Shown in pieces: positions 1,845 through 64,000 of a stretch of 64,000 nt of DNA. The stretch comes from Trebouxia sp. TZW2008 (taxonomy: Eukaryota; Chlorophyta; Trebouxiophyceae; Trebouxiales; Trebouxiaceae): positions 62,001 through 126,000 of the forward strand of contig BDIU01000021.1 of the NCBI GenBank assembly GCA_002118135.1. The letters are read 5' to 3'. Numbering within the stretch: the first letter of the stretch is position 1; each line of letters opens with the position of its first letter. The notes under the pieces were generated by a model. That model did not search any database and was not told the origin of the DNA. It saw only the letters and a program-made list of their open reading frames with translations. The translations under genes and the position numbers were made by a program.

Positions 1845-4800
1845 ATGGTGCACAAGCTCGCTGTGGTATCGGGCGGAGGACCCGCCGGTGCAGTGACGGC
1901 AATTTTGCTGGCAAAGCAAGGCTGGCAGGTTCAGGTACTGCAGCTGCCCTTGGCAACTGCTTCAGAGATCTCTGCTGGCTATGCTTGTGCACAACTGGCC
2001 CATGATGACCTGAAGGTCAAAGGGCACAATTTGCCATGCGCTGGGTTGGGGGTGCAATTTTGCTGATGTTCAATGCATTTATTGCAGGTGTTTGAGCAGG
2101 CAAGCCTTCCTGCTGCGCGGCCATCTCAGCAGGACCAGCGGGCTTACAGGCTGACGCTCAACTCTCGAGCAATGCGTGTTCTCAAGCTCGCTCATGTGAA
2201 TATGCTGCCAATCATTGAAAAGCAAGGCGGGTTCCTTGGTGAGGATCCTCTTCCGCTACTTGTTGCTGCAATTGCTGCAGCTCAAAAACCCATGCATCAT
2301 CCTGCTAGACCTCAACTTGAAATTTGACCTGCTTAGCAGCAAAGCCAGGTCCTGCCACACCTTTCAACATTGAGTTATTGAAACTGCTCTTGCTGCAGAG
2401 GCAACAATCTTTAAGGCGAAGGGAGACAAAGCAGTATCTGGAGGGCAAAAGATACCTGTGACAGATGATGCACTCAGTGTGAGGGCCTACCGTGATGAAT
2501 TAGCCTTATGTGTGATCAAGGAGGCACAGCGCCTCTTCCCAAATGCCATTGAGTTCCACTTTAATGCCCCCATACAGAAAGTGGACCTACATAGGCGCTT
2601 GATTTATCATGGCCCTCCATCAGAGCCAGATGCAACACAGGTGCACATCTCTCCAAGCTCATTTTCATGCTGTTGAATGCAGCAGGTGCACAACACCTTT
2701 CCTCGCTCATGTCGATGGATCCCAATGCAGCAGGTGCACATCTCTCCCAGCTCATGTTGTTGATGTCCAATGCAGCTGCAATTTGATGGGAATTGTGCAA
2801 GCAGCTGAGGCACATCATTCAAGCAAATTTTGTCAGGGGATATGTGCAGCCCACCTGTTTGTCAAAAGTTATTGTCCCATTGGTCCTTCGAGACTTTTTG
2901 AGCAATCTGGCTATCATGCGACGGAACTGAGTGATCAGCTGACCATGTTTGCTCCAGGTTCATTGTGCTGACAACAGGCAGATCTCAGTCCTGCAGAAGA
3001 GGGCAGATATGCTTGAGCAATTGAGCTTGGCTTGTTGACATTATGCTGTGCTTGCCACTGCTGTGGTCTTTTCTCTTTGGTAAAGAGGCGCACATCAAAG
3101 TGCATGTGGATCCTCCATGATGTTGTTGAGCTTGCAATGTTACCGCTATGAAAGAAAGAGACTTGGTGCAACAAACTAGAAACATAATTCGCGCTCCTGT
3201 AGGCAAATGTACTGTTGGGGGCATTTGACAGCAGGAAGCTTTGCACTGTCCACATGGATTATGCATGGAAAATTAGGGATCTTGTGTATGTCGTCCCTGC
3301 TCCAGACCTGATCATACTCATGATTCAGGCAAACGCTGACCAGCTGCCTTTGGCTGCTAGACACATGGCACCTGTGCTCTCAAGCCAGGAAGTTCAAGGA
3401 GTTGCACCTGACTCCACGCACCAGACTGCACGCTGCGTCGACTGGTTGAAAGATTGATTTGATGACTGATGGACTAATTGCTTGATTCATTTGACAATTG
3501 ATTGAATGATGTTGTTGCAGGTGCCGTATGATTTGTTGATTGGGGCTGATGGAGCAGGCAGTGTTACAAGATCAGCTTTACAGCATGCAATGCCATTATT
3601 AAATTGCTTGCTTATGTCTTAGGTGCCATATGACTTGTTGGTGGGGGCTGATGGGGCAGGCAGTGTTGTGAGGTCAGCTTTGCAGCGAGTCATGCCTGCA
3701 AGGTACATGCGGCGCTACACACACAAGCAGGTCTACTCCATGGGTCAAGTCGCTCCTTGCTCACCAGAAGAGATCCCGCCGCACTCTGTCATTCAAGCTC
3801 ACGCTGCAAAGGTACAGCATTTGTTTCAGGCATGGATAGAAGGCACACTGCTTGCACTGTGTCATTTGGTCATCATTCCCAACATCATCACCATCAACAA
3901 CATCACTTTTAAATGCTTTCTAGCAAGGTTCCATGACTCAGCTCCATGAAGACGCAAAGAACTGCCTTCAGCCAATTCTGTGATCAGCAGAACAAGCATG
4001 CTCAAGACGACGCTGATTACATGTCCATCATGTGAAAGACACAGAAACAGGAGGATACTCAACCAGATGACAGTATCGCAAGATGCAGTATCAAATCACA
4101 CATACTTATTCCCATGGCCATTGTGCAGGAAGGCATGGTCATATGGGATGCACAAGGCAGCAATGACTGCCGTGTCGGCCTGGTTCTGCCCAAAGAGCGT
4201 GCTGCAGCCCTCAGGTGAGCTCATAAGCAATTAAACAAGTGTTGCATCCTTCTGTCTTCACTCAGGTGTCTGTTCGTCTGGCTGTCTGTCTGTCGCTGTG
4301 TCTGTCTGTCTGTGCAAGAGTCTGTCTGTCTGTCTGTCCATCGCTATATGTGCAAGCCAATCTCTGCTGTCACCAGTTTGGAGGCTGAGCAGTCTGTGAA
4401 GAGTGTTCACATGCAACGGCTTTGCTGCCAACAAGACTGTCTTCAACCTTGCTACAAATTCTACATAAGTCCACCAATGACATTGTCACATCACAGCTCT
4501 CAGCCGCAGGAACAGCTGTGTCTTAGCTCAAACAGCGCCTTGCACATAAGAACATGTGCAGGAAGGGTGTTACAGAGGGGTCGCTGGACCTTGAAGCAAG
4601 CGCTCCTGCGCTGCTGCACTATACCTGCCAAGCAGCCGTAGAGTCAACGCAGTTGTAGCCAGGAGTCCGCATATGACCATCTTACACATCAGCTCCCACA
4701 GCAGAAATGCTTGTGTTTAGCTAACACAACTCAGTTCACCATAACACATGCAGGAAGGGTGACACAGAGGGCGTTGTCAAGATGCTTGAAGCCAGTGCTC

Positions 4801-7501
4801 CTGCACTGCCACACTATGCCCGCCAAGCAGTCTTGGAATTGGCGCAGTCCAAGCCCAGCTTCTACCCTATGCCTAGTTGGACACATCTTTCCCAACTTCA
4901 TGGTCCCAAGGCAAGTGTCAAAAGAAGTATCTTCTGGAAAAGCCAGCTTTGCAGCATGCCTGTTGTTTTGCGCATGCCTCTTCTACGTGCTATTACCCCA
5001 TCCTCGGCTGGGCTCACCTTGCTGAGCTAAATGGACTAAAGCCAAATCTATAGAACAGGCAACATATCCCGTGAAAAGCTGAGTATACCTGCACCAGCTT
5101 TGCCCTTCAGGCAAGTCTTCAGGACCTTGAGTCATGTTGTACTGACACACTTCAACTACTGGAATAAGGATGTAGCAGTGTCTGCTCTGTGCATTGAGAT
5201 CTACAAATCTTTCTGGTTGAGGTGACTGTGTTGCTCTGCAGTTTGTGCCCCCGGGCAATGCAGCACACGCTGTGTTTTCAGTACTGAGACAAGGCTTTAG
5301 TATAGCCATGAAGTTGCGGCAAATCAGTTGCTATTGCCGTCACAATTATGCATACATTTCCCTTTCACATGAGTATATTACTCTGCAGACTGTGCTCCTA
5401 GAAGAAGCAGCTCACACAACGTCCCCGATTTTATGAGCGCTTGGATGTTGCAAGCTGAATGCAGCCTTGCAGTATGAGGCAGCTTCACTATCAATACCTG
5501 CACATGAACACAAGTGGTTTGCATCAACTTCATTGTATTGCTGTGCAGATTGCGCTTCTGAGCAGTGCAGCTCACACAATGCCCCCAGCGTTAGGGCAAG
5601 GCCTGAATGCAGCCCTGGAGGACTTGGGAGTCTTTGCTCAGTGCTTGGAGCAGCACCAAGGCAATGTGGTGGCGGCGCTGCCAGCTCACACCATGAACAC
5701 AAGTCTGCATCAACTCCATTGTATTGCTCTGCAGGCTGTACTGTTGGGCGATGCAGCACACACAATATCCCCAGTGGTAGGGCAAGGCTTGAACGCAGCC
5801 TTGGAGGATGTGGGAGTCTTTGCTCAGTGCATGGAGCAGCACCAAGGCAATTTGGATGTGGCCACTGCCAGCTGACAACGTGAACACAAGTCTGCATCAA
5901 CTCCATTGTATTGCTCTGCAGGCTGTACTGTTGGGCAATGCAGCACACACAATATCCCCAGTGGTAGGGCAAGGCCTGAACGCAGCCTTGGAGGATGTGG
6001 GAGTCTTTGCTCAGTGCATGGAGCAGCACCAAGGCAATTTGGATGCGGCCACTGCCAGCTGACAACGTGAACACAAGTCTTGAGCATCAACTCCATTGTA
6101 TTGCTCTGCAGACTGAGCTGTTGGGCGATGCAGCACACACAATGTCCTCAGTGCTAGGGCAAGGCCTGAATGCAGCCTTGGAGGATGTGGGAGACTTTGC
6201 TTCAGTGACTTCAGTTCTTCTCTTGTAAACAAGCTGGCATTGCTCTGCAGACTGTGCTTTTGGGCGACGCAGCGCACACAATGTCCCCAGTACTAGGGCA
6301 AGGTTTGAATGCAGCCTTGGAGGATGTGGGGGTCTTTGCTCAGTGCTTGGAGCAGCACCAAAGCAATGTTGATGCGGCGCTGCCAGCTTACAACAAAGCA
6401 CGCTTGCCGGATGTGCAGGCCATCATGCTGGTCAATGAAATGGTTGCCTCGTCTGATGCTGGGCTTACTGTACAGGTGAAGCCTCGTTTCATCACATGCA
6501 TTCAGCACGCATGCTAGACAGGCTCAGCAGGCCCAGCTGGGTAGGCAATGGAGCAGTCAAGTGTCAAGCCTAGCTGCCGCTTTCTTGCAGTGAGCATACA
6601 ATGCAGCAAGTGACTATCAGTCAATCCGTCTGTCCGTCAATGGCTAAAATCATCCATGCATGCATCAATCGCCCTTTCCTGCAGCAAGCATACAATGCAG
6701 CAAAGGTCTAGCATCCAATCGACTGGTCCATCAACGCATTCAGCCATGCATCAATTACACTTTCTTGCAGCGAGCATACACTGCAGCAAGTATCTGTCAA
6801 TCAACCCATCCGCCTGCCACTCGTCCATGCATCAAACGACCAATCAATCAATACATGTGCTGACCAATCATGACTACTGTCTCAACAGTTTTGATGTTTC
6901 TAAACTCAACATGTGAGTGTAGCAATACGCCTGCTCAATTTGCGCTATCTGGTCTCAATCAAGATGCAGTGCAGATTCTGCCCTCATGATATGCACCTTA
7001 CTCAAGTGGTATGCATGGCAGCATGATGAAATGAGACTTGAGCAGTGCTTGTTGCTGCTGAAGTCAAAACGAAAATACAATGCCATAGGCCAGCTGCATT
7101 TTCGTAAACAGGGGCAGCAGAGAACCTGCATTGGCTGAGCAAACAAGTGTCTTTTGAGCATGCATGATTACTTCGGCAGAGCTCTGCTTGTTGCCCTGTT
7201 GAAGACACAGGTCTGATGCTGCAAAGTCAGGTGCTTGAACGTATGTACTGTGCGCATCCAGGATCAGGATTTAGCGCACAAGCTGTGGGTGACTGGTCAC
7301 AAGCTGCTCTTCAAGTTACACATGATCTCCCACACAATACTGAACAAAGCTGCGCCAAGTATGATCCCTGGACCTCAGTTGATCAAGTTGGTGACTGGCG
7401 CTGCACCGTACAGAGCCTTCATATCAGCCTTGTACCAGGATGCCATTTTCACAGCTGGATTACTGATAGCTGCTGTAGCTTTAGTTCTGTACATGGTTTA
7501 G
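1845..7501 (+). CDS. Kynurenine 3-monooxygenase-like FAD-dependent hydroxylase
   Basis: Eight exons join in frame to 459 codons plus stop: 1845-1934, 2088-2238, 2399-2640, 3623-3811, 4129-4214, 4754-4910, 6251-6475, 7262-7501. Residues 5-17 hold the dinucleotide-binding GxGxxG-type motif (VVSGGGPAGAV). Exon 4 starts VPYDLLVGADGAGSVVRSAL, the second FAD/NADPH motif with GADG. Exon 7 carries the third flavin motif GDAAHTMSPVLGQGLNAALE. The last exon ends in a hydrophobic helix (FTAGLLIAAVALVLYMV), matching the C-terminal membrane anchor of eukaryotic kynurenine 3-monooxygenase, which hydroxylates kynurenine at the outer mitochondrial membrane. Substrate specificity is inferred from family resemblance only; another group A aromatic hydroxylase is possible. 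The intron after exon 6 starts with GC (AAG|GCAAGT). A short exon between 6475 and 7262 may be missed. Several introns contain decayed tandem copies of neighbouring exon ends. Confidence 0.78.
2641..2775 (+). repeat. Three tandem copies of the exon 3 donor region (monooxygenase)
   Basis: The exon 3 end ACACAG|GTGCACATCTCTCC is followed by related units starting at 2686 and 2734 (GCAGCAG|GTGCACA...), a period of 45-48 bp. Each repeats the CAG|GTGCAC junction, so the array multiplies donor-like sites just downstream of the real one. Confidence 0.7.
3522..3592 (+). repeat. Pseudo-exon copy of monooxygenase exon 4 start
   Basis: GTGCCGTATGATTTGTTGAT after a TTGCAG acceptor repeats the start of exon 4, which begins about 100 bp downstream at 3623. 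The copy encodes the same GADGAGS motif for about 23 codons, then diverges. Acceptor and frame are intact in the copied part, but no donor follows at the end of the similarity. Confidence 0.8.
4264..4342 (+). repeat. (TGTC)n-type microsatellite in a monooxygenase intron
   Basis: Imperfect runs of TGTC/TGTG tetranucleotides fill this part of the intron between exons 5 and 6. Confidence 0.7.
4559..4640 (+). repeat. Decayed copy of monooxygenase exon 6 start
   Basis: GCAGGAAGGGTGTTACAGAG and the following ~70 bp repeat the exon 6 start at 4751 (CAGGAAGGGTGACACAGAGG). The copy ends in an in-frame TAG where the true exon continues, so it cannot replace exon 6. Confidence 0.75.
5239..6250 (+). repeat. 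Tandem array of copies of the FAD-motif exon (monooxygenase exon 7)
   Basis: Upstream of the full exon 7 (6251-6475), about six shorter copies start after CTGCAG acceptors near 5241, 5388, 5547, 5733, 5921 and 6109. The central ones are spaced 188 bp apart. Copies at 5547, 5733, 5921 and 6109 keep the GxAAHTxxPxxGQGLNAALED core. Those at 5241 and 5388 are badly decayed. Copies 5733 and 5921 encode about 46 residues of exon 7, then meet TGA at a CCAGCTGACAACGTGAACAC junction where exon 7 reads on. Each unit is therefore the intron end plus roughly the first 140 of 225 bp of exon 7. Only the last copy has a good donor (ACAG|GTGAAG). Confidence 0.88.
6583..6800 (+). repeat. Three tandem units with acceptor-like TTGCAG in a monooxygenase intron
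   Basis: The motif CTTGCAGYGAGCATACAATG recurs at about 6587, 6681 and 6767 (period 86-94 bp), each followed by TCAATC/CCATC-rich sequence. They resemble copies of an acceptor plus the start of a short exon, but no intact exon is recognised here. Confidence 0.6.
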
Positions 7502-28997: not shown

Positions 28998-34076
<5,079 letters not shown>

Positions 34077-41866: not shown

Positions 41867-44800
41867 TCACAAATTGGGGTTGTCTACAACAATTTCCTTG
41901 AGATTGCCCTCAAATTTGTCAGCATCCTTTGCCTTCTGTGCCTGATTGGATGTCGATTTGGCAAGCCTTTGAGGGTGATTCTCAGCCACAAACCGCAGTG
42001 CAGGAATTAACGCCTTCTCACTCAAGTGATCTTCCAGCATCTGCAGTTTGCATCCAGTTCAGCACACAATGGTTTGAGCAGGATCAGGCAGCAATTGATT
42101 AGATGCCAGGAACTTCTTCTTCTTTGCCCAATATGCACGCTCAGAGCTTCACAACAGCAATGTGCACCTTTTGGACTCAAACAGCATTAAGGGCCTCCCA
42201 ACTTAATGAGTTTTGAATGCTGCAAGTTGCTGAATACCATACACTTGGTGTAAATCTGACAGCAATCCAGGAATGTAGTGGCTAGTGCCCAAGTAGGCAA
42301 GATGCCATCCTGCCCTTACAAGACACAGGTGTAATGTCCATGTGACCACTGGTGAGGGTCTGTTGCGGGTCCAACGGCTTTGCAGCCTTCCGTGGGGTGG
42401 ACCCACACTATTGAGTCAGGGAGCATGAGACATGGCTGGTGACAGACAGCAACACCTCACCCACAACTTCCGTGAGTCTGAGTGCTCTTACAGAGCGCTA
42501 TGTGCAAACCTCCAAAGGCTGAGATTACACAGCATAAGACCCATGCACAGAAGCAACAACTTACCCTCTTTGAGACCAGAATCCCTTCTCCCACAACTTC
42601 CCTAGGGCTGACCCACACTGCGTCCCACTTCTTCTCCAGCCTGCCCTCACCTCCAGACTTCCTCTTCTTCCTGACCTTGATGGGACGCAAGAAGATGATG
42701 CGGCCAGGGGGGTACATGTTCAACGCGCGCCCCTTCCTTTCCTGAGCTATGTGATACCTGCAGTGGCAAAAGTTTGCTGAAAGGAGGGAAGCTGACACAG
42801 GTGTAAAGCAACTACAGTAGCTATGCAAGTGTGGGAGTGCAAATGACAACTCAAGTGCCAAAGCAGTTCCTGTGCAGCATGCTGCCTGCTGGCCCAAATG
42901 CAATGGTGCTCCAACATGATGTTGTTGCAGAACAGTGACACATGCAAAACAGTTACAGGTGCAGAACAGTCACAGGTGCAGGACAGTCACAGGTGCAGGA
43001 CAGTCAGAGGTGCAGGACAGTTTCAGGGGCAGAACAGTTACAGGTGCAGGACAGTGCCTCAGCCAGAGCACGACATGGCATAAATCTTGATCAAGACCAT
43101 ACCCACCTTTCTAGGAGCGCTCTGGCTTCTTTAGGGATCTTATTGTAGGGGCAGAAGAGGGAGTCAGGGGCAGGGCGGCGCTCCTTCCACCACCAGCCCC
43201 CCATGATCACATGCAGCTTGTGATACCTGCACACCACGCCAATCAGCACGCTGCATCTTTGCTCATACTACTCATCCACTTGCACCAGTCTACCGGTTTG
43301 GTAGGCCAAATTGAAGCGGACATCTGTTTGTTGCAGCTCACACAGCATGCTATGTCTTCTGGAGCTGTGCAGACAATGTAAGCCGTAAGGAAATCTAATT
43401 GTTGCAGCTCACATAGCATGCTAAGTGCAGACAATGTAAGTCTTGAAAAGGACGACACAGTGTGAATAAAGTGATCTTGCTGCTGACACTGTGGCTGGCT
43501 ATGCCAATGACTAATGCTGTACAAATCTTGATGTTCCTCAACCCTGCTGGGTAAACTCAGTGTTGCGGGTTGTCAGAGTAATATGCCTCTGCTAAGCGTT
43601 TGCCATCATGGAATGCTAAGAGCACCACCCATGTGACCCTTTTAGCCCAGCAAGCCTAGGAATCAGATGATGTTGACTACAATCTGATGTAATTCAGCCA
43701 TCATGTCAATTCATAAGACCTGCTGATACAGCGGATGACATACAAGACTCATGATAATGCTTCAGGTGATTATTGAAGGACAGCAGCTGTATGATGCAAT
43801 TATCAAACCATGCAATTGTTGAATTTGCTTCCCACTGCCACGTGACTGTCCTCAACAACAAATGCAAGAAAACAGTATGGCATGGAGAGCTTCGCTACAA
43901 TACAAGCTGCCAATGACTGAAGGGTTGCCAGCATTGTTGTAGATCTTGCCCAACACTGCCGGATAGATGCAGGTTTGCAAATTGTCAAAGTGACATACCT
44001 CTGCCCTCAGCATCTGCCATTCTGCAATGCTGACGTCAGAGAGTCTGTCAACGTGGCAGCGTGTGAAGCCTGACCTATCAAGTGATGATGACCAAAACCA
44101 GATGCGATCCAGCTATAATGTCAACATGCTTGAGTTATGACACCTGACAATGCAATTGATGATAATGCTTGGGGATAATTGAGGTGACTGTTGAGTGACA
44201 GCAGCTGTATGGTGCAGTGATCACACCATGCAATTGGTGGAATCGCTTCTTCTTCCTAGTGCCAGGTGAATGACCACAACAACTAATGCAAAAAAATTAG
44301 TATGGCATGGAGAGCTTCACAACACTACGAGCTGCCAATGACTCAAGGGATGCCAGCATTGTTCTTGATCTTGCCTGACACTGCCTGATACATTCGGCTT
44401 TGCAGGTTGTCAAAGTCACATGCCCGTGCCCTCGGCTTTTGCCATCACAGAACGCCGAAAGCTACAAGCATGTCAGATTGACAGCCTGCCAAGCCAGACC
44501 TATCAAATAATGTCGACCAAAGTCAAATGTAATCCAGCTACAAGGCCAAGCTGCCTGGGTTATGATCCCCAGTGATACAGTTGACAACACAACAGACTAG
44601 ACGGCAGATTTAGGGGTTGCCAGGATTGTTGCTGATCTTGCCCAACACTGCCTAACAGACTCAGTGTTGAATGTTGTTGGAGCGACATGCCTGTGCCCTC
44701 AGCGTTTGCCATCCTGGAATGCTGAGCGCAGCACACATGTGACCCTTACAGCCCGGCAAGCCTAGCTATCAGGTAATGTGACCAAGGTCAAATATGATCC

Positions 44801-47800
44801 AGCAGTAGCATCCTCTTGCCTGAATTGCAATGACTTGCAATACACTTGACAATACAAGAGACTATACGGCAGACTCAGGGGCTGCCAGCATTGTTCCTGA
44901 TCTTGCCCAACACTGCCTGATAGATTCAGCTTGGCCTGCTGCCCGAACGACATGCCTCTGCCCACAGCGTTTGCCATCATGCAATGCTGTGGAGAGCGAC
45001 ATATGACTCTTACAGCCCAGCAAGTCTGGCCTATCAGGTGATGTTGACCAAGATCAGATCAGATTCAGCTATCATGCCGTCCTGTCTGGATTGCAATACC
45101 TGATGATATAGTTGGCAATACAACAGACTGCGCAGCAGATGCAAGGATTGCCAGCATCCTTGCTGAGCTTGCCCAACACTGCCTGATAGATTCAGCTTGG
45201 CATGCTGTCAGAGTGACACGCCTCTGCCCTCAGCGTTTGCCATCAGGCAATGCTAAAGTCAGAACCTATGTAACTTTGACATAGCGCCAAGCCTGATCTA
45301 TCAAGTGATGATCAGAATCAAGAGTGATCCAGCTATACCACCGTCCTGCCTGGACTATGGTGCGTGACAGTACAGTCGGCAACATGAAAGACTGAAAGGC
45401 AAACTCAGGGGTTGCCAGCATTGTTTTTGATCTGGCTCAACACTGCCTGATAGTTTCAGCTTGGCATGCTGTCAGAATGACATGCCTGTGCCCTCAGCAT
45501 TTGCCATAATGGTATGCTGAAGCCATAAACTATGTCGCTCTGACAGCCTGCCAAGCCTAACCTATCAGGTGATGTCGACTAAGGTCACACAGTGTGACAC
45601 AGGTCTAATGCTTGCCTGGATCATGATGCCTGAGGACACATTTGGCAACACAAAAGACTGAATGACAGACCCAGGAATGGCCAGGATTTGTTGTTGGTCC
45701 TGCTCAAGACCGCCTGATAGATTCAACTTTGCAGGTTGTCAGAGTGACATGTCTTTGCCCTCAGCATATGCCATTGTGGCATGCTGAAGGCATCAAACAC
45801 GGATTTCTTACAGCCTGCCAAGTCTGCCTGATCAGGTGATGTTGACCAAAAGCAACCATGATTCAGCTAACATGCCGTTATGTCTAAATTGCAATACCTG
45901 ATGATGCAGCTGGCAACACAAAAGATTGATTGGGATACTCAAAGGTTGGCAGCATTGTTCTTGATCTTGTCCAAGACTGCCTAACAGATTCAGTGTTGCA
46001 TGTCGTCAGAGTGACATGCCTGTGCCCTCTGCATTTGCCGTCATAAAATGCTGAGCGCAGCACATATGTGACTCTTACAGCCCGGCAAGCCTAGCTGTCA
46101 GGTAATGTCGACCAAGGTCAGATGCAATCCAGCTATGACGCCGTCTTGCCTGAAGTATGATCCCAAATGACAGAGTTGGCAACACAAAAACACTGAACGG
46201 CAGACTCAGGGGTCGCCAGCATTGTTCTTGTTTCTGCCCAGTTCTGCCTTCTAGACTCAGCCTTGCAGTTTGTCAGAGTTACACGCTTTTTTCTCCAGGC
46301 CCCGTCATGTAACGCTGAAGCTGTCAAGTGTGACTTTGATACTCAGCAAAGCCTAGCTAGCAGGTGACAATGAACCAGAACCAGAATGAGTCGCCGCGGT
46401 GCCAGTCTACTCACATATAATGACTCATGCTACAGCAGAGCCTATGCAACAGCACAAGTCTGTTGGTCACATTGCTTCAGGCAATGGAACAACAGCAGCC
46501 ATGTAACGTGTGCAAGTGCATTCCAATCATGCACTTGGTGACATCAAGACAGCAGCCACCCAGCTACCATCTGCCCTCCCATCTGCCTTCAGAACAATAT
46601 AAAAGGGAAGATTAACGGCGCGCCAGGGCAGTAACAGTTCCATGCTTTCTTCTACACTGTTTCCATTTTCCCGTCCAAACAGGGGACATAAGACAGTGTG
46701 AAAACAAGAAAAAAGGAAGAAAAGTCACATCATCATACCTGCAGCGCGCAAGGGCAGTAACCATTTCGTCCATGAGCCTGCTGAGGTTGTTCACGGTGCC
46801 ACGGCTGACAGCGTCCTTGCCCACCACCAGGCTTGTGCAGAAGGTATCCAGCACACGGTTCAGATTCCTGCTGACCAAACCACCAGGCGGGTTGAAGGCC
46901 CAGGTCCTGATATCTGCGCATTGGGCAATAGCAGTCAGGTCAGGTGTCAGGCAGGTCCAGATGGTATTCACACACTTCAGGTTGCAGCTCACTCAGCCAC
47001 CAGGCGGGTTGGACGCCCAAGTTTGGATGTCTGCACAAGCAGAATGAAGCGTCACTTGGGTCTAAAGCTGCATCACAACCGTTCAGACATGTATTGTGCC
47101 AAGTACACTTGCTAGGTGGTGCAGAAGATGTCCAGCATGCGCTTCTGTTTGCAGCTGACCAAAGCACCAGGCGAATTGAATGCCCGTGTCCAGAAATCTG
47201 CATGCACAGCACTCAGGAACAGCCAGTGTTGGGAAAAATGACAGCAACATTTGCATTGCTCAAGGTGTCCAGATGCAGTTCAGATCTTTACTGACCAGGC
47301 CACCAAGTGGCTTGAACACCCATGTCTCGATGTGTGCAGGCAGGAAGTGCAGGCAGGAAGTGACAACAACTTCAGGTGCCTGCTGAAAAGAATGCCGCGT
47401 GTCTCAATTTGCACAAAAACAGGTGACGTCAGACACTGATGCAATGTAAAGTGTGCTATTCGGAAAAGAAAGTCTTGAGTGATGTACTTTCGGCACCAGA
47501 GCCGGCCATGTTTTGTGTCCGGACTCTAGCTGTTATGTCTTAAAGGCTTGACAGCACTTTCTGCACTAAAGCCAGTCATACTACAAGACTGTTCATGTCA
47601 GCCATGTATTATGACCGGACTCTAGCGTCAGCCGAGTGATCGAATGAGGTGAATTGGTTTGATGAAATTTTTGGCTGTTGAATCATTTGACTCATTTTCA
47701 GCCGATTCAACTTATGTTCAAGATTGACCCAGCAGAGTCAATCAATCCATTCAGCTCATTCTGCACAATTCATCGGACTCATTTTAGCCAATTCAACCCA

Positions 47801-50800
47801 GCGGAATCGATAGCTCACTGAGTCGAATACGTTTGTTGATCTGAATGAGCTAAATTTGCTGAATTAGCACAGTCATCAAGCACTGATCATACTGTCGTTT
47901 TATGAGACTGACATTACAGGCTCTTGTATGTATGACTGCGTTCAAGGTGCTATCTCTCCCTCCCAGGTGGGTCTCCCTCCCAGGTGGGAGAGAGGTCGAC
48001 AGCACTTGCAGCCAAAAGGCAGTCATATAACAGGACTATCATTTACAGGCTTTTGTGTGTATAACTGCTCTTACGGTGTTATCTTTTAAAAGGTCAACAG
48101 CACTTGCAGCCAAAAGGCAGTCATACTATGAGACTATCGTTACAGGCTCTGTGTATGTGACCAGACCACATAAATTTTAGTCGTAAGTGCTGGCAGATGA
48201 TCTCGGTGAATACAGGACACCAAACGCTGTGTTCAAAAAGTCTAAAAAGACATTAGCTGCTTGCACACAATCGCTTTTGTTGATTCTCGTATCGTTCTGG
48301 TAAAAGTCACTACATATTTTGCAATCAACTCGACCTTTCCAGATGACTTGACACTTGAGAAAAGCACATGTTCTATAGCAAAGTTCTCCCTTGTACAAGT
48401 CTGCTTGATAGTAGTCGACCTCAAAGATCCCAGCAGTGTCCCATTCGTTTCGGCATATGCTGATGCCCGGAGCACCCTTCTGTGTGTACGGCAACATCAG
48501 AGGCAGATCCTCGCAACCCTCTGCCGCGTGAGCCAGATGCAGGAAGGGGTGAGCTGCAAGGCGACTAGGATTAACAGTGATACGTGTGGGGGTATCGTCA
48601 TCAGACATGCACCAGTAAGTTAGTGTCGTTGGCATGAAGGCTGCGCGGGAAGTGAAAGAGGTGAAAATTTGCTGTTGCAGCACGGCAAAGTTCGGCCTTT
48701 GCGAGTTCGTCATGTTTCGAAGAGTAACGGTCGCAGCGGTCGTTGGCGACGAAGCCGCGCTCGATTTTGCACCAGAAAATTGTCTGGCTTCTGCCAGCTT
48801 CTTACGACCAGGCCTCTACAGGGCCTCTGACGATCCGGGGTTTGCCCACACTACAAATACAGGTTTGTGGAGGTTGCGGAGCACTTTGTGTGGGCTACAC
48901 TAGTAATGTACTGACATTGAGGCAAATTTGTGTGGGGTGCCGAAGGCCGTGCGCGGTTTTGGGTGCTCCCCCCCCCAGGGGAAGCGGGGGGTGTAAAGGC
49001 CTGCTTACGAGTAGTTTTACGATTGCCGCAGTATAGACGGAACTGGTTATTCAAGTACGAAATTCAAGTACTTCAGTGTTGATGCTGACCTGGGAACCTG
49101 TCCTTGAGCTTGAGGCCAATCAGCGAGGCTGTGCCAGCGCCGAGGGAGTGGCCTGTGATGACCAGCTGGTAATCCTTGCCGTCCAGGGCCTCGGCCATGC
49201 GCGCTCCCACCCCCTCACCAGTCGCCTCATGCCTATATCCAGCCGCATATGTTGTAAGTACTCCTGTTTGTTTGATCAACCAGAATAGCTCAAAGCATGG
49301 TGTTAGCTTATACAGATGTGCAAGGTTCTGTTTTCGAAGTGGTTGCTGACAACTCAGCCATGTCAAATGCTCTGTTCATTCTTCACAAGCGCTATCATAG
49401 CAGCATGGCAGCTTGAACACCCTGAGCACACTGTCCATCCCTTCACACAGTCCCCTGACTCCTCATTGCAATCCCTGATACTGCTTTTCATGAAGCGGCG
49501 TTTGCAGGACGCCATGCTCCTCTGCGCCCTTCAGGATGGCATGCAGTCATGCACTTCTCTGAGAAGCAACACATGCCCACAGGCTTGGCATATTGCAAAG
49601 GATGAGTTAATACTTGGTGCTAAATCTGCTCTACATGAAGCAGTGTTTGCACTAAGCCTGGCAGCATGTCCGTGAGAAGCTGGCATTCCTTACAGAGGGG
49701 GTATAAGGCAACAGGCAGGTGACACACTGCACGATGGACTTACTCTTGATCCTGATACTGCTCGCCATGGAGCAGTGTCTGCAGAACGCCATGCTCCTCC
49801 ATGTCTTTCAGGATGGCTTCAGCTGAGGCCACCATGCCTGCATGCCCAAAAACTGGACCCAACGGCTTGTGGTTCTTCTGAAAGTCCTGCAATCAGCCGC
49901 AGCATGCTACAGTGTCTCCCTGAGAATGTGTAATACAGCAATGACATGAGTCCACTAGTCAATGTTCAGAAACAAAAGGGACCAAATTGACAACCAGCAA
50001 CTGCTCATTCAACTGTTGAAAGCCCACGTAGTGTTACAGAGCGCGTATGGGATAAAAAGCATTGCTAGCTAGATGGCGAGGTGCTAATTCCTCACACTGC
50101 TACATTTCCCCCCACTAAGTACAGAGCCAGCGTAACAACTCTGCTGCGAATAGCGTCAGGTGCGCCCCCCTGCAAAGGCGTCCTCAAGAGTGAAATGCAG
50201 CGAAATCCCGTGCGGAAGGGATTCGAACCCACGACCCCTCGCGTGAGAGGGAGCCGTGCTAGGCTCTCAAAACCATTGTTACAGAGCGCGTATGGGATAA
50301 AAAGCATTGCTAGCTAGATGGGGAGGTGCTGATTCCTCACACTGCTACACGTAGCCAGGCTTGTTGCTGATGAACTCGGGCTCAGTTGATACCAGGCAGC
50401 ATGCAACAAATGCAGAAGGCGCAATGATCAAGCTTACAGCTCCAAGCCCAACCTTCCCCACAGACGTGCAAGGGCTACACATACTCAGCATGTAGATGAG
50501 CAGACAGCTGTGCTTGCTGACCGCCAAGCAGGACTCTTGAGGCGCAAAGACATCAGTGTGCATAGGCAAACCTTAGGAATCCAGCTTTCCATGGGCTCAG
50601 GGTGCACAACAGCGTCAGTCACCAGGTCTGCTATGCTCTGAGTGCCCCTGATGGCCACAACCACCGCCTTCTTCTCCCTGCGTTATGAGTGACTGTGTGT
50701 GTGAGTGAGGCAGCAAGCATTTGAGTGCGGCTGGGAGGTTTCACAGCAATGAGAGAACCTGGCATGCCCTTGCAGCTTCATTGGCAATCTCCTTGCTCAT

Positions 50801-53800
50801 AAGTGAGCAAGATCGACCTCCACCAGCTAAGGCTGGCCACAAGGGTCACAAATGTGATGTCTGCGCATTGATAACATGGCAGAGCTCGGAGTGATTGTGA
50901 ACAGACGCATGAGCTACAGCTAGTCTAGTTCATCACACCAACATAAAGTTGCTAGAATCATGAGACCAAGGCCTGTACTGTACTAGCTGAGACCGATGCA
51001 ATGTAATAAACCACGCAACATTTAAGACAGCTGAATGCCTGCTCTGTGCTGCAACTGCTTGGTAAGGAAAGCAACTAGCTCTAACAAAATTTGCAACAAC
51101 ATGAGACAGTGCAGCTCACTTGTCAAGGATGATCATGTAGGGCAAATGAGACAAAGCCCTGTTGTCATGACTCCAATAAAGCAACTCCTCAGGCTTCAGG
51201 TCTGCTAGCTTGATAATGTCTGCAGTGATGCTGTCCCCAGAGATGATCTTCTTGGCACACGCTCCACATGTCAAGGGAGACCGTTGCAGCCGGCTGCAAG
51301 GCAGCAAGAAGCAACAGAATGAGTGACAACAGTGAGCACTGCAGGTCTTGCAGCTCTGCTACTTGAGTGATGTCTGCAGTGCTGCTGCCCCAAGAGATAA
51401 TCGTCTTTGCACACGCTCCACATGTCAAGGGAGACCGTTGCAGCCGGCTGCAAGGCAGCACAAACAGGTTGAATGACAAAACAATTTGCAGAGCAGGTCT
51501 TGCAGCTCTGCCAGCTTGATGATGTTTGCAGTGATGCTGTCCCCAGAGATGATCTTCTTTGCACTTGCTCCACATGTCAAGGGAGACTGTTGCAGCCGGC
51601 TGCAGGACATGCAAATGAGCAGCATGAGGGACAGACAGTGGGCATTGAAAGTGGCTGCAACATATAGAAAGCATACTTCACAAGTGACAAAGCTGTGCAA
51701 GGCCGGCTGCAAACCTCAGCATGGAACTGAACAAACAAGAGCGCATTTGTCTGACCTCTATGAATTGGGTCTGTCCTCTTGAGGGGCAGGAGACCATGCG
51801 TGATGTAAAATATGTCCAGAGTGCGAGGGCGCACTGCTAGCGCAATGTTGCAGTGACTGTGCTTGCAGTGCTGATCACGTGAGCTCTGCTGTCATGACAT
51901 GATAAGCAAACTGGTCTCTTCAGCCTCAGTTCCCAACAGACTTGGCACACACCAGTGTCATGGAAACAGGCAACAGCTGCCATGCACAATGACTATACTC
52001 CTGTATTGATAGGAGACCATGGTGCAGATTGAGCTCACATACCTCTTGTCAGCATTCTCTGTGACAGGCTGTATAGCATATGACGCCACTGCGTACTTGA
52101 CATAGTGGCTAGCCGTCTCGAGGTCTTCCAGCTCAACAGCACTGAAGGTACCTGCATTTGCACAGCATTCCTGAGGACCAGTTTGACGTGTCTTGATGAT
52201 TTCACAAGCAAGCTGAGAATACCAGGGCTGCAGGGACAGATGCAATAGTCAGGATTTGCTGAAGCTGCATGTGCACTACGCTCGTGAGTGTGACATATAC
52301 CTTATGTCTGACGATGGGATATTGCTTGTAATGCGCCAAAAAGTTTCATGCCAGTCGGGTCTGCTGACAAACGCAATTTTGCCCATGAAGGTTGGCTTGA
52401 CCAAGAAGAAGCCACAATCAGAGCAAAACTCAAACTTGTATTCTCATGTGTCTTGGTCAAGCAGCGCTTGCGCTGAGTTGTCTGTGTCATCATACAAATG
52501 CTATCTTGCAAGGAAACCAGCAGCAACAGCAGCAGCAGGTCACCAGCATAAGCCTTCGCAGCTTGCTTAGCAGTCAGCACTTGCTCGACGCCATTCTCAG
52601 CAGTCTGAATATGCCTCACATCCTCCGCTTGCTCAGAGGGCGTAATGACAGTAGGGAACTTGAAGGAGATTTGGCGCTCCAAGGGGATCTCAATCGAATG
52701 CGCCTGGCCCAATGTATCTGTGGGTTTGCTGTCGGGCCCTATGAGCTCTGTATCTGCTACCTTGGCAAGTGCTGGATGCGCAGTGTCCGCAATTGGCACG
52801 CCATGATCATCGACAATCTGCAAACACGCAAGCGTGCAAATGGGTACAGCAATGTGCTGGCTGTTCCAATGTGTCTTTGGGTTGCTGTCTGGCCCTATGG
52901 GCTCTGTGTCTGCTACTTTGGCAAGTGCTGGAGGCGCTGTGCCTGCAATTGGCACACCATGCTCGTCCACAATCTGCAAACACATAGGCTGAGAACGCAT
53001 GCATGGACACAAGCGCAAATGGATTGTGCCTGTCCCAATATATCTGTTGGTTTGCTATCAGGCCATACGAGCTTGGTGTCTGCTACTTTGGCAAGTGCTG
53101 GATGCGCAGTGTCAGCAGTTCTGTGACAGCTACTTTAGCAATTGCTACATGCACAGTGCCCATAAATGGCACACTGTGGTCATTGACAATCTGCAAACAC
53201 ACAAGGCTGAGTGCCCTATGAGTTCTGTCGTCAACGCTAGCAGGCGCTGAATGCGCAGTGTTTGTGATGAGCAAGCCATGCTCAACCACAATCTGCAAAC
53301 ACATGAGACTCAGTTTGCTTGTGTGCACTTGCACATGCCCTCAAAGATCCTAATGCTTTGTACATGATATTGGCCATTATTCACTTCTGAAACATGCAAT
53401 TCCTCAACTGGCATGGGTACCAGGACCGCTGTCCAGGTGGTGGCCCAACAGGCTGACAAGCAGATTCAAGGGCACAGCTGCTCTTTGAAACTGTTCCCTC
53501 AGCAGCAGCATCTGATGCTGAGGGGCTATGACAAGAGCAGCCTTGCCCCTCAAACAATGTGCTTGAACAGACTGCTAACCTGCTTGACAATCATTTGAGT
53601 CATGAGCCTCACAGACAGCATGAAGTTGTGCAGCAGGGACAGACACAATCCCAATGCAGTCTATGATGCACTATTAGAACCAAGTTTTTTTTGTGGACAG
53701 CTGTACATGCAAGTCTGCAAAGCAAATCTCACGCAGACAAACTGATCTGATGCAAGAACCCAGAGCACAGCACGTCAACCAGCAACAGATGCTGGGCATG

Positions 53801-56800
53801 GAAAATGACCCACGATGTCCTGTTGCATTCCGTTGTATCACTAGTCTGAAACAAAGTTTTGCGTACGATTGCAAGCACTATCAATCACTGCTGTATAAGT
53901 CTTCACGTGCAAGAATACCTCAAATTTTTAGCAAGCTTGACGTTACCTTGCCACTGTAGGTGGTGTGCTGCAGTGATAGCTCGCTAGGGGCTCCCAGGGC
54001 TCCTGACGGCTCATTCATACCAGCTTGCATCAGCCCAGCTGTAGGCACACCATCAGGTCCCAAGGTGACAAAGTCATGCTCTGACATGTCTGACTCTGCT
54101 CTCTCAAAACCGACAGGCCCTGTCTCTGGACCCCTCTCGTCTGCCAGCACCTCCGGATTGATCTGGCTCAGGCTGACCACAGTGGCGTTCGGGTCATCCT
54201 CTAAGTTTGAACCGGCGGTGGCAAACGGCGAGACCCAATTTGGATCGTCTGGCCTGTTGGATGCGTCACTGACAGGCCGACCGTATGGCATTGTCTCGCT
54301 GCCTCTCTCCCATGACGCACCCTTAGCTGAGGTGACGATGCGATCTGAACCTTTGCCCATTTCCCGCTTGATCTGCCTGTCCTCGGCGGCCTCGTCCGCC
54401 GTCACATGCTTAGCCGGCACTCCGCCATTTTGATGCGTGTCTGCATACGGCAAAGGCTTGCGTGTGTCTTCTAGGCTGCGGCGGTGCGGAGTAGTCTCAG
54501 GAGGCGGACCTGCCCTCTTGGGAAGCTTGCTGGTGTCCACTTTGTCAATATGCTCCGCTGCTTCTTGGTAGCCTTGAGCAAACTTCTTTTTCCACTCAGC
54601 AGGGTAGTTGTCTGGCATGGCAACACCGTTGCTGCCAGCATCCAGCTGACCAGACTGCTGATGCCGTTTGGCAGGAGGTACCTCAAGGTCAGACTCCTCA
54701 GGAATATCAGCCAGTCTATCATCATCATCATTGAGGTCACTCCCTGCTCAAGAAAGCCACAATCAGCAGAGTGACCTGGCCCCAAATACTAAGCACCGAT
54801 TGATGAGACACAGTGCTGTTATCAGTCAGGCAAAACAGATGGGCATCTGCCCTGATGCAGCACATGCTTGGCACGCACTTGACAACCCGTTGTGCACAAG
54901 CTTGACAAGATCTATGTTTGCTATTCCAGCAAGCAACCTCCTAAGGTGGTGAGTGAGCTCATGTATTTGCTGTGCTGTAGCAGGATGGTCTGACAATAGT
55001 AAGACCACGAGAAGGTATGGGACAATGCAGTCATTCATCTTCGGTAATGCTGACTGTGCTGGAAGGTTGGCTGAACGCCAGTAGACAAGGCAGAGGTGTG
55101 GACCGACACAGTGAGCAAGCTAATGCGTTTGTTGCAGATTGGCATCATGCACATGATGTAGCGCTTATATGCTGCAATGCACAGCTTACTCGCGTCAACG
55201 CTTTCTGTCTCAATGTCTGACACGTCATCAGTGGTTGTTGATGTAGCAGCATTGGAGGCTGCCTTGATGACAGGATTAAGTGCCTTCTTGATGCGGTTTT
55301 TGCGCCGCCTTCGCTGTGCAGCAGCAGCTAACACCATGGCTGCCGTGATGTCAGAGGGCGCAAGATCAACTGAGCCAAACAGTCCTGAGATCCACTGTGC
55401 TACGCTGGGCAAAGGCGCTCCTCTGCAGGACAGAAAGCTGAGTGAGCGCAAGACTACGTAACAGTTGGGCACAATAAGCAAACTGCAATGTATTGTTGCA
55501 GGTTGGCCGCCTAGGCTGTGCAGCGACAGCTAACACCGTGGCTGCTGTGATGTCAGAAGACGTAAGATCACCTGAGCCAAACGGTCCTGAGATCCATTGT
55601 GCTATGCTGGGCAAAGGTGCTCCTCTGTAGGACGTGAAAATTGATAAATTACAGCTTGGTATAAGAAAGTGCTAGCTTGAGTCAGCAGACAGCCCATGTA
55701 CTGAGCTATGTGGGGCACAGACACTTGTCGTCAACTTAGAGCGTCGTGAGTCAAATCAATGCCGCAAAATCTGCTTTCAGCTCCAAATGCAGTCAAGGAC
55801 AGGATGGTCTATGCAGGATGCTGATGCAGGATGTTCAGCCAAATTGGAGGTCTGCATAAAGGCAGAGAGCAACTTCATGCCTCAAAATGATGGGAACTAA
55901 ACACAGCCTGTAGGCCCTGAGTTGAGCAGCCTACATGCCTGATGGTCAACAGCCATATACAGGGGCAGTCAAGCAGGCAAATTGGCCAGTGAACTTTCTG
56001 ATGGTAATTACAAAATAACACAAGCAGGCAAACGGTCCAGCACTTTGTAACAGCATGTCTGCTTTGGCATAAGCAAGCCTTGCACTTTCAACGCACACAA
56101 ATTTCACAGCCACTTGCAAGGCTGTAGGAGGCCTGCACAGATTCATATGCTTTGAGGGCGCAAAGCTCTCTGACTCCAAAATCAACACACGCTGTCAGAA
56201 AAGGCTGGTTTCAATTGTGCATGCTGCCACAGAAAATGCTCAGGTGGTGACAGGACAATGCTCCCTTGCCACGGGCCTATCAGCATGCTAACAAGTTGCA
56301 CAGCAGCGAGCCCATCTGTGCTATGGTTGGCATACATGCAGTTTGATGATGCACTGGTACACAAAAACTTAGGCAATCTTGCGCTGCAATGATGCAGCGA
56401 CAATAGCATGCCTGATGTATGGCCTGTTCAAAATTCCATGCACACAAGCTCTAGGCACGTTACTGCTTAGTATGCATGCTCCAGTGCAAAACCAGGTTGC
56501 TTCCTTTGTAGGTCAGACGCTTCACCTGCCATCAACATCTTGCTTGACATCTTGAGAGCAGCCACACAGCCAGGAGACGCAAAGGCACCGCTTCTCCCAA
56601 TTCTCTTGCTTGTTGTGCTCAGGGTAGGCATTGTAAATGCTGAAGATGCAAAGCCTGCAAGTCATGATCCTATCTGGAAGGGTACATCAAACTGCTGCTG
56701 ACCTGCGGCTGAGCTGTTGTCACATGAAGTTGGAGCTTTAACAAGCTAGATGACCACTTGTTGATGAGGAGTTATCGATGCAGCGCTTAGCACAGGAGAG

Positions 56801-58053: not shown

Positions 58054-58320
58054 TCTGGCGAAACTTCAGTGCCAGCCACCCGAATCGTTACCAGCCGCAA
58101 GCTACCGCGAGCCGGGCTGACCTACACCCACCCGACATGTGCTTCTGGTCTTAGCCAAGTTCGCATCTCGGAGACGTAGCTCCGCGATTATGCGAGAGAG
58201 AGAGAACCTTCGTTGAGTCAGCGTTGTCAGCGCTCAGAAGTCCAATAAGCACTTGCGTACGTGCGTGAGCCCTAGCCAAACTTTGCAACCTGGGAAAATA
58301 AGAGCCTAACTAGGGAAACC
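58054..58320. promoter_or_regulatory. CG-rich promoter region of the lipase gene
   Basis: CG-rich sequence (ACCAGCCGCAAGCTACCGCGAGCC; TCGCATCTCGGAGACGTAGC) begins directly upstream of the predicted lipase start and ends near 58310. Confidence 0.45.
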
Positions 58321-62000: not shown

Positions 62001-64000
62001 TGCATGCAAGATTTTGTTGATTATTGGCATACTGCGCCTTGCTGAATCTCTGAATAAAACATATGTGCTATGCATGATTGCTTGTGCACAAAATATTGGC
62101 TATGTGTGCGCCAAATTGTTGTCAAAACCATGACTGAAAACAGGCTCACCAGTGTCAGGATCAAATCTGGGGTGTGCAGTGACCGCCTCCCCTCCTAGCC
62201 TGGACTCTGACCCATACTTACCCCCCACACCCAAAGCCTTGAAGAAAGCCTCTGCATGCACTCAAGCCTTGTCAGCTCAGCCTTCACAATAGAGCTAAAC
62301 TTGATGATGTTGTTCACGACGCGCACATTGACGCTGGCGCTGAGTCTTCTGCATGCAGCCAAGACCTGTCAGCTTAGCTTAAGGATTCAGGTAGAGATTG
62401 GATACTATTACTCGTAGTGTGCAAATTGACACTGAGGGTAAGATGTCTGCATGCACTCAAGCCTTAGCAGTTCAGACTTGCGCGCTGGATGATGGCACAT
62501 GCGCTTTGCAGGAGCTAACAGGACAAGGATGCTGATGACAAGCAATGCTGGAAATGCTGCTGCTGACAATCACTCGATGCTGAAGACACTTGATTCTAAT
62601 GATGCTATGTCACAGAGACACTGTTTAAAGGAAGAACTCATGCTGCAATCTAGCGTCATCACTGAGGAAGACTCACCTGAGAGTCTGTGAACAATGTTGC
62701 AAGGTGGCAAATAACATCCTAATCAATGAGACAAAATGACAGAGGAAACAAGACCATGACTGCAACCTCGCAACAGAGTGGCTTCAAACAAATGAACACA
62801 GAGAAATATTCACCTGAGAGTTTATTCACAGCCTTGCCCAGGTTGAATGAGGCCCCAGCCTTGACATTACCACCCAACAGATCCACCCCCAGGGTCTCAA
62901 GGGTGTAGGGGTCCATGGCAACTGGCTGAGCGGCCTCAAACAATGCCAGGAGTCTACCTCCCCAGTGGACAATGCTGGTGTTGGCAGCATTCTTCACAAA
63001 GATGTCAAAGGCGTTCTTTTTTGCTCCCCCTGGCCGCTGTGTGCCGAATGAGCCTCTGAACAGAATCTTTTGCTGTGAGACCTCGCTCTTGTACCTGCAA
63101 GGAATGCAGTCAAGCGACCACCTTACACAGCAGCTTGAGCCGATTATCCAGAAGACTGACATTTACAGCCTGCAAACAAAGCTTGAGGGATCCACTCCAA
63201 AGGATGCCAATGCATTGTACTAGAGTTCATTGAGCAGCAGGATCCTGATCAACAGAGAAACTTGCACAAGGCTCCTTGCCTTGCTAAAAACACAAAGCAG
63301 CAATGCAGTGCAGCTGGCAAAGTAGAAGAGAAAGCTCATGTGCAGTGCTTACTCAGGAGTTTCTACAAAGCGTGCTCGGGCAAAGGCTTTGCCATCTTTG
63401 ATGGCAATGCTGATGATGTAGCCATGGCCATCAAAGGGGTGAGCTAGCTCCTGATTTCCCAAAGTGTATATCCCAGCGCCATTCCTGCATGTCACAGGTG
63501 TCATGACACCGCCAGAACAAGCTGAGCTGGCAAGACAGGACTTGGGCCACATGTACCATGCGCTTGTGCTTGCACATGTAACAGTGACTGATGCTATTGC
63601 AGATAAGCTCCAGAACACAGCTGGTGATGGCATGTTTTGATGGTGTCACATCACAATGATGTTACATCACGAGCAACAGTGGGTGGAGGCAGCAACTGAT
63701 AGTTGTGATGATGGCCTGATGCAGACAAGCTGATTGATGCAAACACCTGTAGTAAGTGCCTGTAATATCTGCGGGAATTTTGCCTTGCACATCTATCCAG
63801 TACCCTTCCTGCTCCTTGTGGTTGACATGGGCTGAGGCCCAATCCCTGCATATCGTAGACACATGTGGATGTTTGCTTGCTGACTCAGCTCGTGCGCAGA
63901 GAATAAACACAGGAGGTACTGCTGCACATAACAGGCTGGCAAGTGCTTGGCACTCTATGACCTCCAGAGGGCGCTGCACCACTGGCTGAGATGAGCCCAG
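59040..64000 (-). CDS. Carotenoid cleavage oxygenase (partial, 5' end outside window)
   Basis: Nine exons are phase-consistent: 63845-63747, 63484-63353, 63094-62814, 62251-62150, 61754-61630, 61316-60825, 60440-60303, 59951-59819, 59587-59040. A further upstream exon may lie at 63966-64000. The family start is GYWIDVQGKIPADITGTYYR, then HPFDGHGYIISI. The four iron-binding histidines appear to be present: TAHPRFDP, FLHDFALT, FVFHQGN and YGIHGSW. These non-haem iron dioxygenases cleave carotenoid or apocarotenoid double bonds; which ones cannot be told. Two Gln-rich inserts made of internal repeats are unusual: PQLQQTAPQLQRQ-type units (about 60980-61090) and ASNGNG...LQQSQ units (about 59250-59400). 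Confidence 0.88.
59640..59835. repeat. Degenerate ~50-bp repeats beside carotenoid oxygenase exon 59951-59819
   Basis: CACCTGCATRTGYTGGGTG and GTGAATCATGATGC/GTGAGTCGTGGTGC motifs recur about four times from 59650 to the exon end at 59819. They are copies of the exon end and donor (CAGCATATGCAG|GTGAGA on the minus strand). Confidence 0.65.
60765..60812. repeat. (GCAAAGCAT)n microsatellite
   Basis: Five to six 9-bp units next to the donor of carotenoid oxygenase exon 61316-60825. Confidence 0.8.
61290..61420 (-). repeat. Duplicate of carotenoid oxygenase exon 61316 acceptor
   Basis: GGCTGCAAACCAAATTCATGTCCTGCAAAGCATGCATT (61295-61332) recurs as GGCTGCAGATCAGGTTCATAGCCTGCAACGCATGCATT (61367-61404), a 72-bp period, on the acceptor side. 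Confidence 0.8.
61735..61905 (-). repeat. Duplicate of carotenoid oxygenase exon 61754 acceptor
   Basis: ACCTGCTGAAATTTGAAAAACACC ... CGCCCTGCAATGTGACA (61725-61768) is repeated as ACCTGCTGTAATTTGCACTC ... CGTCCTGCAACGTGACA (61857-61900). Confidence 0.7.
62235..62480 (-). repeat. Repeats of carotenoid oxygenase exon 62251 acceptor
   Basis: TCTGCATGCACTCAAGCCTTGTCAGCTCAG (62251-62280) recurs at about 62348 (TCTGCATGCAGCCAAGACCTGTCAGCTTAG) and 62449 (TCTGCATGCACTCAAGCCTTAGCAGTTCAG), a ~100-bp period. Confidence 0.8.

Follow-up and report, generated by a model that had tools for sequence, protein, structure and literature searches.

The window analysed here is a stretch of 64,000 nucleotides from the alga Trebouxia sp. 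TZW2008 (contig BDIU01000021.1, C21:62001-126000), whose assembly comprises 68.5 Mb in 527 contigs. It contains genes for a KMO-like monooxygenase (KMO), a MIF4G-domain protein, panB, RPE65 (carotenoid cleavage), threonine synthase (TS), homoserine kinase (HK) and a lipase (LIP), as well as a desaturase-like gene (DES) recognized by eye only, whose probable family assignment came without a database hit. In five of these genes parts of exons recur within the adjoining introns, and exon-based alignment places 27 such partial copies beside 13 exons. The copies accompany a pattern of short, close direct duplication that extends through intergenic as well as genic DNA. The features are given below, with "live" marking the copy used in the mature protein.

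2638..2776, + strand: donor-side array at KMO exon 3, 45-bp unit, 3 copies (Tandem Repeats Finder, TRF); mostly intronic, with almost no exon
3521-3584, + strand: single upstream copy of KMO exon 4, 84.4% identity over 64 bp
3623..3811, + strand: KMO exon 4, live (P0121, 100%)
4562-4653, + strand: upstream copy of KMO exon 6 (exon alignment)
4754..4916, + strand: KMO exon 6, live (covered by P0121)
5227..6207, + strand: array of upstream copies of KMO exon 7 (TRF period 187)
5551, 5736, 5923 and 6112, + strand: copies of KMO exon 7 scored by exon alignment
From 5227 and 5377, + strand: two older copies of KMO exon 7 (blastn/tblastn)
6251..6475, + strand: KMO exon 7, live, last member of its array (P0121, 98.7%)
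26683..26991, - strand: DES exon, taken as live from the gene model only; upstream copy at 27107-27044
29794..29968, - strand: TS exon, live; upstream copy at 30134-30023 (segment found twice in the alignment to 1e5x)
31184..31406, - strand: TS exon, live; two upstream copies at 31559-31474 and 31704-31620 (alignment to 1e5x threonine synthase)
35573..35769, + strand: HK exon 3, live, first in a donor-side array (P0001, 98.5%)
35846-35937, 36003-36080 and 36135-36211, + strand: three downstream copies of the 3' part of HK exon 3 (exon alignment)
37413..37898, + strand: four upstream copies of the head of HK exon 5, at 37413, 37539, 37682 and 37826 (TRF period 143)
37966..38095, + strand: HK exon 5, live, last (P0001, 100% over 45 aa)
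38896..39288, + strand: three upstream copies of the head of HK exon 6, at 38896, 39060 and 39224 (TRF period 164)
39333..39508, + strand: HK exon 6, live, last (P0001, 100% over 60 aa)
46739..46913, - strand: LIP exon 13, live (P0242); three upstream copies at 47022-46948, 47197-47119 and 47326-47262
49744..49886, - strand: LIP exon 11, live (P0242); downstream (donor-side) copy at 49540-49474
51120..51293, - strand: LIP exon 9, live (P0242); two upstream copies at 51447-51342 and 51599-51494 (TRF period 152)
55190..55422, - strand: LIP exon 5, live (P0242, 88.3%); upstream copy at 55624-55506

The copy in use was identified by comparison with three sequences. The longest contigs are 1643 bp for P0001 and 1552 bp for P0121, and both sequences run on without introns, whereas their genomic counterparts occupy about 5 kb each; they are therefore taken as spliced transcripts, probably of the same species. 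The HK query matches P0001 with 100% identity across 75% of the query and a Trebouxia sp. C0004 protein with 81%, and the KMO query matches P0121 with 99% and named Trebouxia proteins with about 47-62%. P0242, used for LIP, is a relative with 80% identity. By tblastn with these three, the mature protein uses the last copy at HK exons 5 and 6, KMO exons 4, 6 and 7, and LIP exons 5, 9 and 13, and the first copy at HK exon 3 and LIP exon 11 (P0001 and P0242). Protein-to-genome alignment found no extra copy in P0001 or P0121. At acceptors the live copy closes the array and at donors it opens it, since the mRNA stays intact only when the partial copies lie on the intron side and are spliced out. 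This order is forced by coding, and the polarity is therefore uninformative on mechanism.

A first-pass annotation of this DNA had described such arrays at nearly every multi-exon gene, with the live exon last at acceptors and first at donors and with divergence growing with distance from it. The arrays beside splice junctions proved real at KMO exons 4, 6 and 7, HK exons 3, 5 and 6, two TS exons, one DES exon, and LIP exons 5, 9, 11 and 13. The order of the live copy held in each case covered by P0001, P0121 and P0242, for TS through 1e5x and for DES in the gene model only. The proposed donor array of KMO exon 3 is present but includes almost no exon. The claim about nearly every multi-exon gene narrows to five genes studied closely, whose arrays are non-independent observations within one gene, and to 11 of 27 introns carrying an exon copy in three of them (HK 3/5, KMO 3/7, LIP 5/15; hand tally). 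Divergence between copy and live exon is about 5-31%, and a trend with distance is visible, nearest copy first, in KMO exon 7 (.895,.876,.881,.839,.805,.689) and HK exon 6 (.942,.873,.845). Exceptions are HK exon 5 (.904,.919,.851,.869) and HK exon 3 (.892,.788,.823), which are not monotonic, LIP exon 9, whose copies are equally identical, and TS exon 5, where the trend is reversed.

To judge from their sequence, the extra copies look dead. The comparison with the live exons covers 27 copies of 13 exons, 765 codons and 332 substitutions. All 24 indels, which fall in 13 of the 27 copies, shift the frame; the copies are therefore not conserved coding exons, although some are nearly open, and the preservation of reading frame that mutually exclusive exons require was not found in them. 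The copy of KMO exon 6 and the HK exon 5 copy at 37413 each have three one-base gaps, which sum to three.

Near direct duplication is genome-wide, above chance, and not restricted to genes or junctions. The sample comprised 254 kb (0.4% of the genome), of which 80 kb form a single block and 190 kb lie outside the window. Self-comparison yielded 256 direct and 19 inverted near pairs (within 2 kb, at least 38 bits) and none in a control with one local dinucleotide shuffle per sequence. The window alone holds 104 near direct pairs covering 19.6% of its bases; outside it, 22,631 of 190,000 bases (about 12%) are covered. At least one near direct pair was present in 10 of 11 random 10-kb loci, with a coverage of 1% to 44% among those ten. 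Adjacent pairs number 150 in the 254 kb. Under relaxed settings, TRF reported 156 arrays with periods of at least 20, which together occupy 9.5%, although 109 of these have a period of 20-39 and many are weak; the shuffled control gave 19 arrays in 144 kb. These densities describe one genome. One degenerate array illustrates the same kind of repeat away from junctions:

44340..46367, no strand assigned: old array with about 7 copies of a 267-bp unit, situated between lipase exons and clear of every predicted exon

The spacing of the copies is also characteristic. In an ungapped scan, offsets lie mostly at 60-200 bp, with a peak at 120-180 bp and a steep drop above 200 bp. The search was limited to 1.5-2 kb, and the blastn self-search yields no offsets below 60 bp, which is taken as a limit of the method, the ungapped scan being weak below about 40 bp. 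Exonic pairs adhere more tightly to the common spacing (n = 118; median 146.5 bp; 93 at 60-200 bp) than non-exonic pairs (n = 92; median 157 bp; 51 at 60-200 bp), which are more frequent at 80-100 and above 260 bp. At locus L010 (3949-4336), an entire predicted exon of 181 bp is duplicated together with its TGCAG and GT, and 11 bp separate the repeated segments; by eye, this exon resembles the helicase VIDEAHN motif.

Two pairs of high identity are transposon features. Positions 50031-50350 of the window hold a dispersed element, about 320 bp long, whose 73-bp terminal repeats are direct, start with TG and end with CA. Among the matches listed, at least 7 other full-length copies at 85-97% and at least 4 more over at least 80% of the length point to a TRIM-like element. 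At locus L006 (598-779), a SINE-like dispersed element of about 137 bp with at least 40 genome matches is flanked on either side by identical 23-bp direct repeats, which presumably represent a target-site duplication. The pairs at window 50032 and L006 598 were excluded from the counts of splice-site spanning, edges, TGCAG and adjacent pairs and from the comparison with simulation; they are retained in the pair totals, in coverage by class and in the test of junction-spanning pairs. That the repeats at large are transposon features or an assembly artefact is scarcely credible: beyond these two pairs, 98 of 107 spacers lack a distant match in the sample and 9 match elsewhere, and exon copies differ by several per cent or more from the live exon. 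Within the 254-kb sample, the same counts weaken a transposon origin of the spacers. Dispersed families were compared with the whole genome for L006 and for window 44001-63900; a further family, about 200 bp long and represented by many copies at 75-91%, occurs at window 48805-49006.

Exons outside the named genes are predictions of a self-trained hidden Markov model (HMM). Among predicted bases, repeats account for 13.6% in intergenic DNA, 15.5% in exons and 13.2% in introns. Of the 256 pairs, 120 cross a predicted junction, compared with 106 +- 11 when pairs are shifted at random (p = 0.11). Of 314 acceptors and 314 donors, 14.3% and 13.7% respectively lie within repeats, compared with 12.3% of 8000 positions drawn at random. 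Coverage within 10 bp of a junction relative to positions farther away is 1.26-fold at acceptors (95% interval 1.04-1.53) and 1.19-fold at donors (0.95-1.47). By number, the excess at splice junctions is thus mild, and a junction hot spot in this sense is hardly supported by the spanning pairs and the spanned sites.

The position of repeat edges tells a different story. The gene finder fuses genes and accepts copies as exons, so that per-pair edge counts may score both copies as junctions; every array was accordingly entered once per junction type. At acceptors, 22 of 112 arrays have an edge 0-20 bp intronward, whereas the null expectation is 7.2 +- 2.6 and none of 400 shifts reached the observed value; at donors, the figures are 13 of 112 and 7.3 +- 2.7 (p = 0.045). 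Outside the window there are 11 acceptor edges (null 4.8, p = 0.0125) and 12 donor edges (null 4.7, 0/400 shifts), and within it 11 (null 2.4) and 1 (null 2.3). At acceptors, edges lying 1-40 bp within the exon fall short of expectation (7, with 14.1 expected), and at donors they match it (14 and 14.5). With an exon-only query, 21 of 23 acceptor copies start at exon base 0-2. The acceptor consensus from gene-finder training is TGCAG, and duplication directed by this motif found no support, non-exonic edges being no richer in TGCAG than interiors (.202 and.203).

These results recast much of the first-pass account. Repeats beyond chance were borne out, as was recurrent local duplication; its confinement to splice junctions was not, given the similar coverage of all three classes of DNA. 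In the suggested comparison of junctions with random positions, the share of sites spanned by repeats is barely raised at junctions in the sample, and it is the edges that pile up at splice sites. Duplication was also said to supply much of the intron sequence; detectable repeats make up about 13% of predicted intron, and the claim therefore exceeds what is recognizable. The term "tandem" suits some contiguous arrays but not the 39 of 53 spaced pairs (identity at least 80%, length at least 40, gap 20-250) in which the spacer is unlike both positions expected of a contiguous unit.

The intron tails of the copies carry further information on their history. A contiguous-unit signature is present in HK exon 5 (copies c1 and c2), LIP exon 9 (c1) and the inner copies of KMO exon 7. 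Dead copies resemble one another in their tails, with scores of 58-120, in KMO exon 7 (c1-c4), HK exon 5 (c1-c2) and HK exon 6 (c1-c2), and the live exon's tail is unlike or weakly like theirs except in HK exon 5 and LIP exon 9; the likeness threshold is low, and scores of 22-30 may mainly reflect the shared last 10-15 bp. Copy c1 of HK exon 6 is closest to the live exon in its exon part (.953), and its tail matches c2 (score 95) and not the live exon (14). Exon and tail of this copy therefore differ in history, a conflict explained by gene conversion limited to the exon block and also by copying bounded by the exon. In DES, the copy shares 95.3% identity over 64 bp of exon, and beyond the CAG the intron flanks are unrelated. 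Slight residual likeness past the edges occurs in every class, and the models are therefore not separated by a residual-homology test.

A simulation of blind contiguous duplication, under settings chosen by the author, allowed substitutions and indels both small and large and kept the live exon under constraint. Since such constraint is absent from introns, a certain pile-up of edges is to be expected, and the simulated share of edges at 0-20 bp was 30-36% in the matched run and 29-36% in another. Among pairs of at least 84% identity, counted within simulation-matched limits, donor edges (7 of 21) are consistent with blind duplication and decay. A link to junctions is thus partly supported by edge position, which goes beyond blind duplication and decay at acceptors and not at donors.

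The best reading, with a probability of roughly 0.5, is that local duplication is blind to genes and that exon blocks are afterwards kept or re-made alike. It builds on the density, direct orientation and spacing of the repeats, the identity of the live copies, the lack of coding constraint in the others and the edge pile-up, and the blindness of the process is supported by the near-equal coverage of intergenic, exonic and intronic DNA and by splice sites being spanned hardly above random. A genome-wide mutational process would repeatedly generate short direct duplications with copies mostly 60-200 bp apart, possibly by break repair with local re-synthesis in the manner of PMC2671141 and PMC8355091. 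Where the source is an exon end, the extra copy would land in the adjoining intron, usually with its own AG or GT, be spliced out with the intron and decay as a dead pseudo-exon, so that the intron grows; dead copies may then be amplified contiguously among themselves. The exon block would be retained or homogenized through purifying selection on the live exon and gene conversion between close repeats. Similarity would tend to end at the splice site because the exon block is kept or re-made alike while the intron flanks turn over.

Several points weigh against this reading. The homogenization step is assumed. Among pairs of at least 84% identity, acceptor edges at 0-20 bp (13 of 20) exceed the simulated share, and 5 of 30 edges lie inside the exon, whereas the large-indel rates that best mimic the pile-up predict about half. 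The DES and HK exon 6 c1 copies, 95% alike in exon, carry unlike intron tails. As for decay, 14 of the 27 copies have no indel, and 2 stops occur where 4.4, 5.5 or 6.7 would be expected if 50, 65 or 80% of substitutions fell at random on the copy (P = 0.18, 0.08 and 0.035). The ratio of nonsynonymous to synonymous substitution (dN/dS) between copy and live exon is 0.34, below the approximately 0.5 anticipated for a dead and a live sequence. Of the 23 acceptor copies, 21 retain AG, with 17.2 expected (P = 0.04), and a mean acceptor score of 6.5 in copies and 5.6 in live exons is mildly against pure decay.

The intact acceptors and the paucity of stops would suit copies that work as alternative or decoy exons. 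This is nevertheless very improbable, since every indel shifts the frame, P0001 and P0121 lack an extra copy, and use of a partial copy would pull the spacer into the mRNA. Another reading is plain contiguous tandem duplication at random sites followed by neutral decay, in which the constrained live exon alone keeps the exon parts recognizable and no homogenization occurs. Such a process accounts for the polarity, the growth of introns, the donor edges and the contiguous arrays (inner KMO exon 7 copies, HK exon 5, LIP exon 9), yet it is unlikely. Besides the acceptor excess, 19 of 25 edges not inside the exon lie at 0-20 bp, compared with 30-71% across the indel rates tried, and the top value requires the share of edges inside the exon that was not observed. 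Close copies with unrelated flanks are a further difficulty: exons that are 95% alike with unlike tails make plain decay insufficient.

The same excess at acceptors, both over the shifted null and over the blind simulation, would follow if duplication copied the exon end up to the splice site, with at most about 20 bp of intron, and inserted it into the adjoining intron through a transcription- or splicing-coupled process or a template whose ends are fixed by splice signals. The start of nearly all acceptor copies at the first exon bases, the prevalence of spacers unrelated to the expected positions, the donor pile-up outside the window and the independence of the pile-up from TGCAG all agree with such copying. 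It is nonetheless doubtful, as non-exonic DNA is repeated about equally, donor edges remain within the blind simulation with a single donor-edge array inside the window, some arrays include the intron tail (HK exon 5 c1-c2, LIP exon 9 c1), and slight likeness persists past the edges in each class. We know of no enzyme that performs exon-bounded copying. Rather improbable, too, is the broader proposal that in Trebouxia-type algae exon ends cut at splice sites, acceptors foremost, are copied into the adjoining intron by a splicing- or transcription-coupled step. Introns would then accrete dead exon ends, and gene conversion between these and the live exon could take place.

Precedents are an acceptor-crossing duplication in a single gene of potato and close duplicates including splice sites in vertebrates. 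In the potato RdRp gene, a tandem duplication crosses the intron-exon boundary (Ma, Lan and Niu 2016, PMC4974935). As there, an acceptor-crossing segment is duplicated, and two pieces turn into intron sequence, the exonic one from the upstream copy and the intronic one from the downstream copy; the potato case created a new intron in one gene, whereas in Trebouxia existing introns appear to grow in several genes, with up to 6 copies and often with unrelated spacers. In the AGGT model (Rogers 1989, as recounted in PMC4974935), where introns are gained through duplicated exons, exon sequence likewise turns intronic, but the intron begins in one copy and finishes in the other, whereas in Trebouxia whole partial copies lie within one intron. 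In the P0001, P0121 and P0242 alignments, no intron with GT in one copy and AG in the other was found, the donor of acceptor-array introns lying outside the copies.

Duplications that arise in vertebrates when repair captures proximal DNA (Pace et al. 2009, PMC2671141) share short copies close to their source, including exons and splice sites, with a median proximal size of 147 bp, and a close donor-acceptor linkage comparable to the Trebouxia offsets within the range searched. They differ in a spacing that averages about 1.2 kb, in at least one inverted example where the Trebouxia pairs are mostly direct, and in 824 proximal events in the human genome by a method based on transposable elements, compared with the Trebouxia count of adjacent pairs. 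Break repair by fill-in and end joining offers a path to short direct duplications, as described for small tandem duplications by Schimmel et al. (2021, PMC8355091); those are contiguous, whereas many Trebouxia pairs have a spacer. The short local duplications termed "doublets" (Thomas et al., as cited in PMC2671141) are also close pairs found genome-wide, whereas Trebouxia has multi-copy arrays and edges at splice sites. Among the matches listed, from a literature in which subscription journals mostly fall outside coverage, no description of such density or splice-site edges was found, and a term search of the main text of two Trebouxia genome papers (PMC12712428, PMC11523091) found neither "tandem" nor "exon".

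How introns acquire their sequence has long been asked, and according to PMC4974935 the cases that can be traced are few. A single genome with many copies of known source and graded divergence could make intron growth by local duplication measurable and not merely inferred. The copies also have a practical consequence. Several were called as exons by the gene finder used here, and many combine an open frame with a strong acceptor; annotations of such algae may therefore contain spurious repeated segments.

Some minor features of the window were recorded in addition. TS (- strand) and HK (+ strand), at 29008-39508, encode successive enzymes of the threonine pathway and are divergent neighbours with predicted starts about 0.4 kb apart. 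The predicted exons at 40267-40907, 3' of HK, resemble a small separate protein that the gene finder fused to HK. Within a predicted and possibly spurious panB exon, a perfect TGATGG hexamer array of 10.8 copies occupies 22888-22952.

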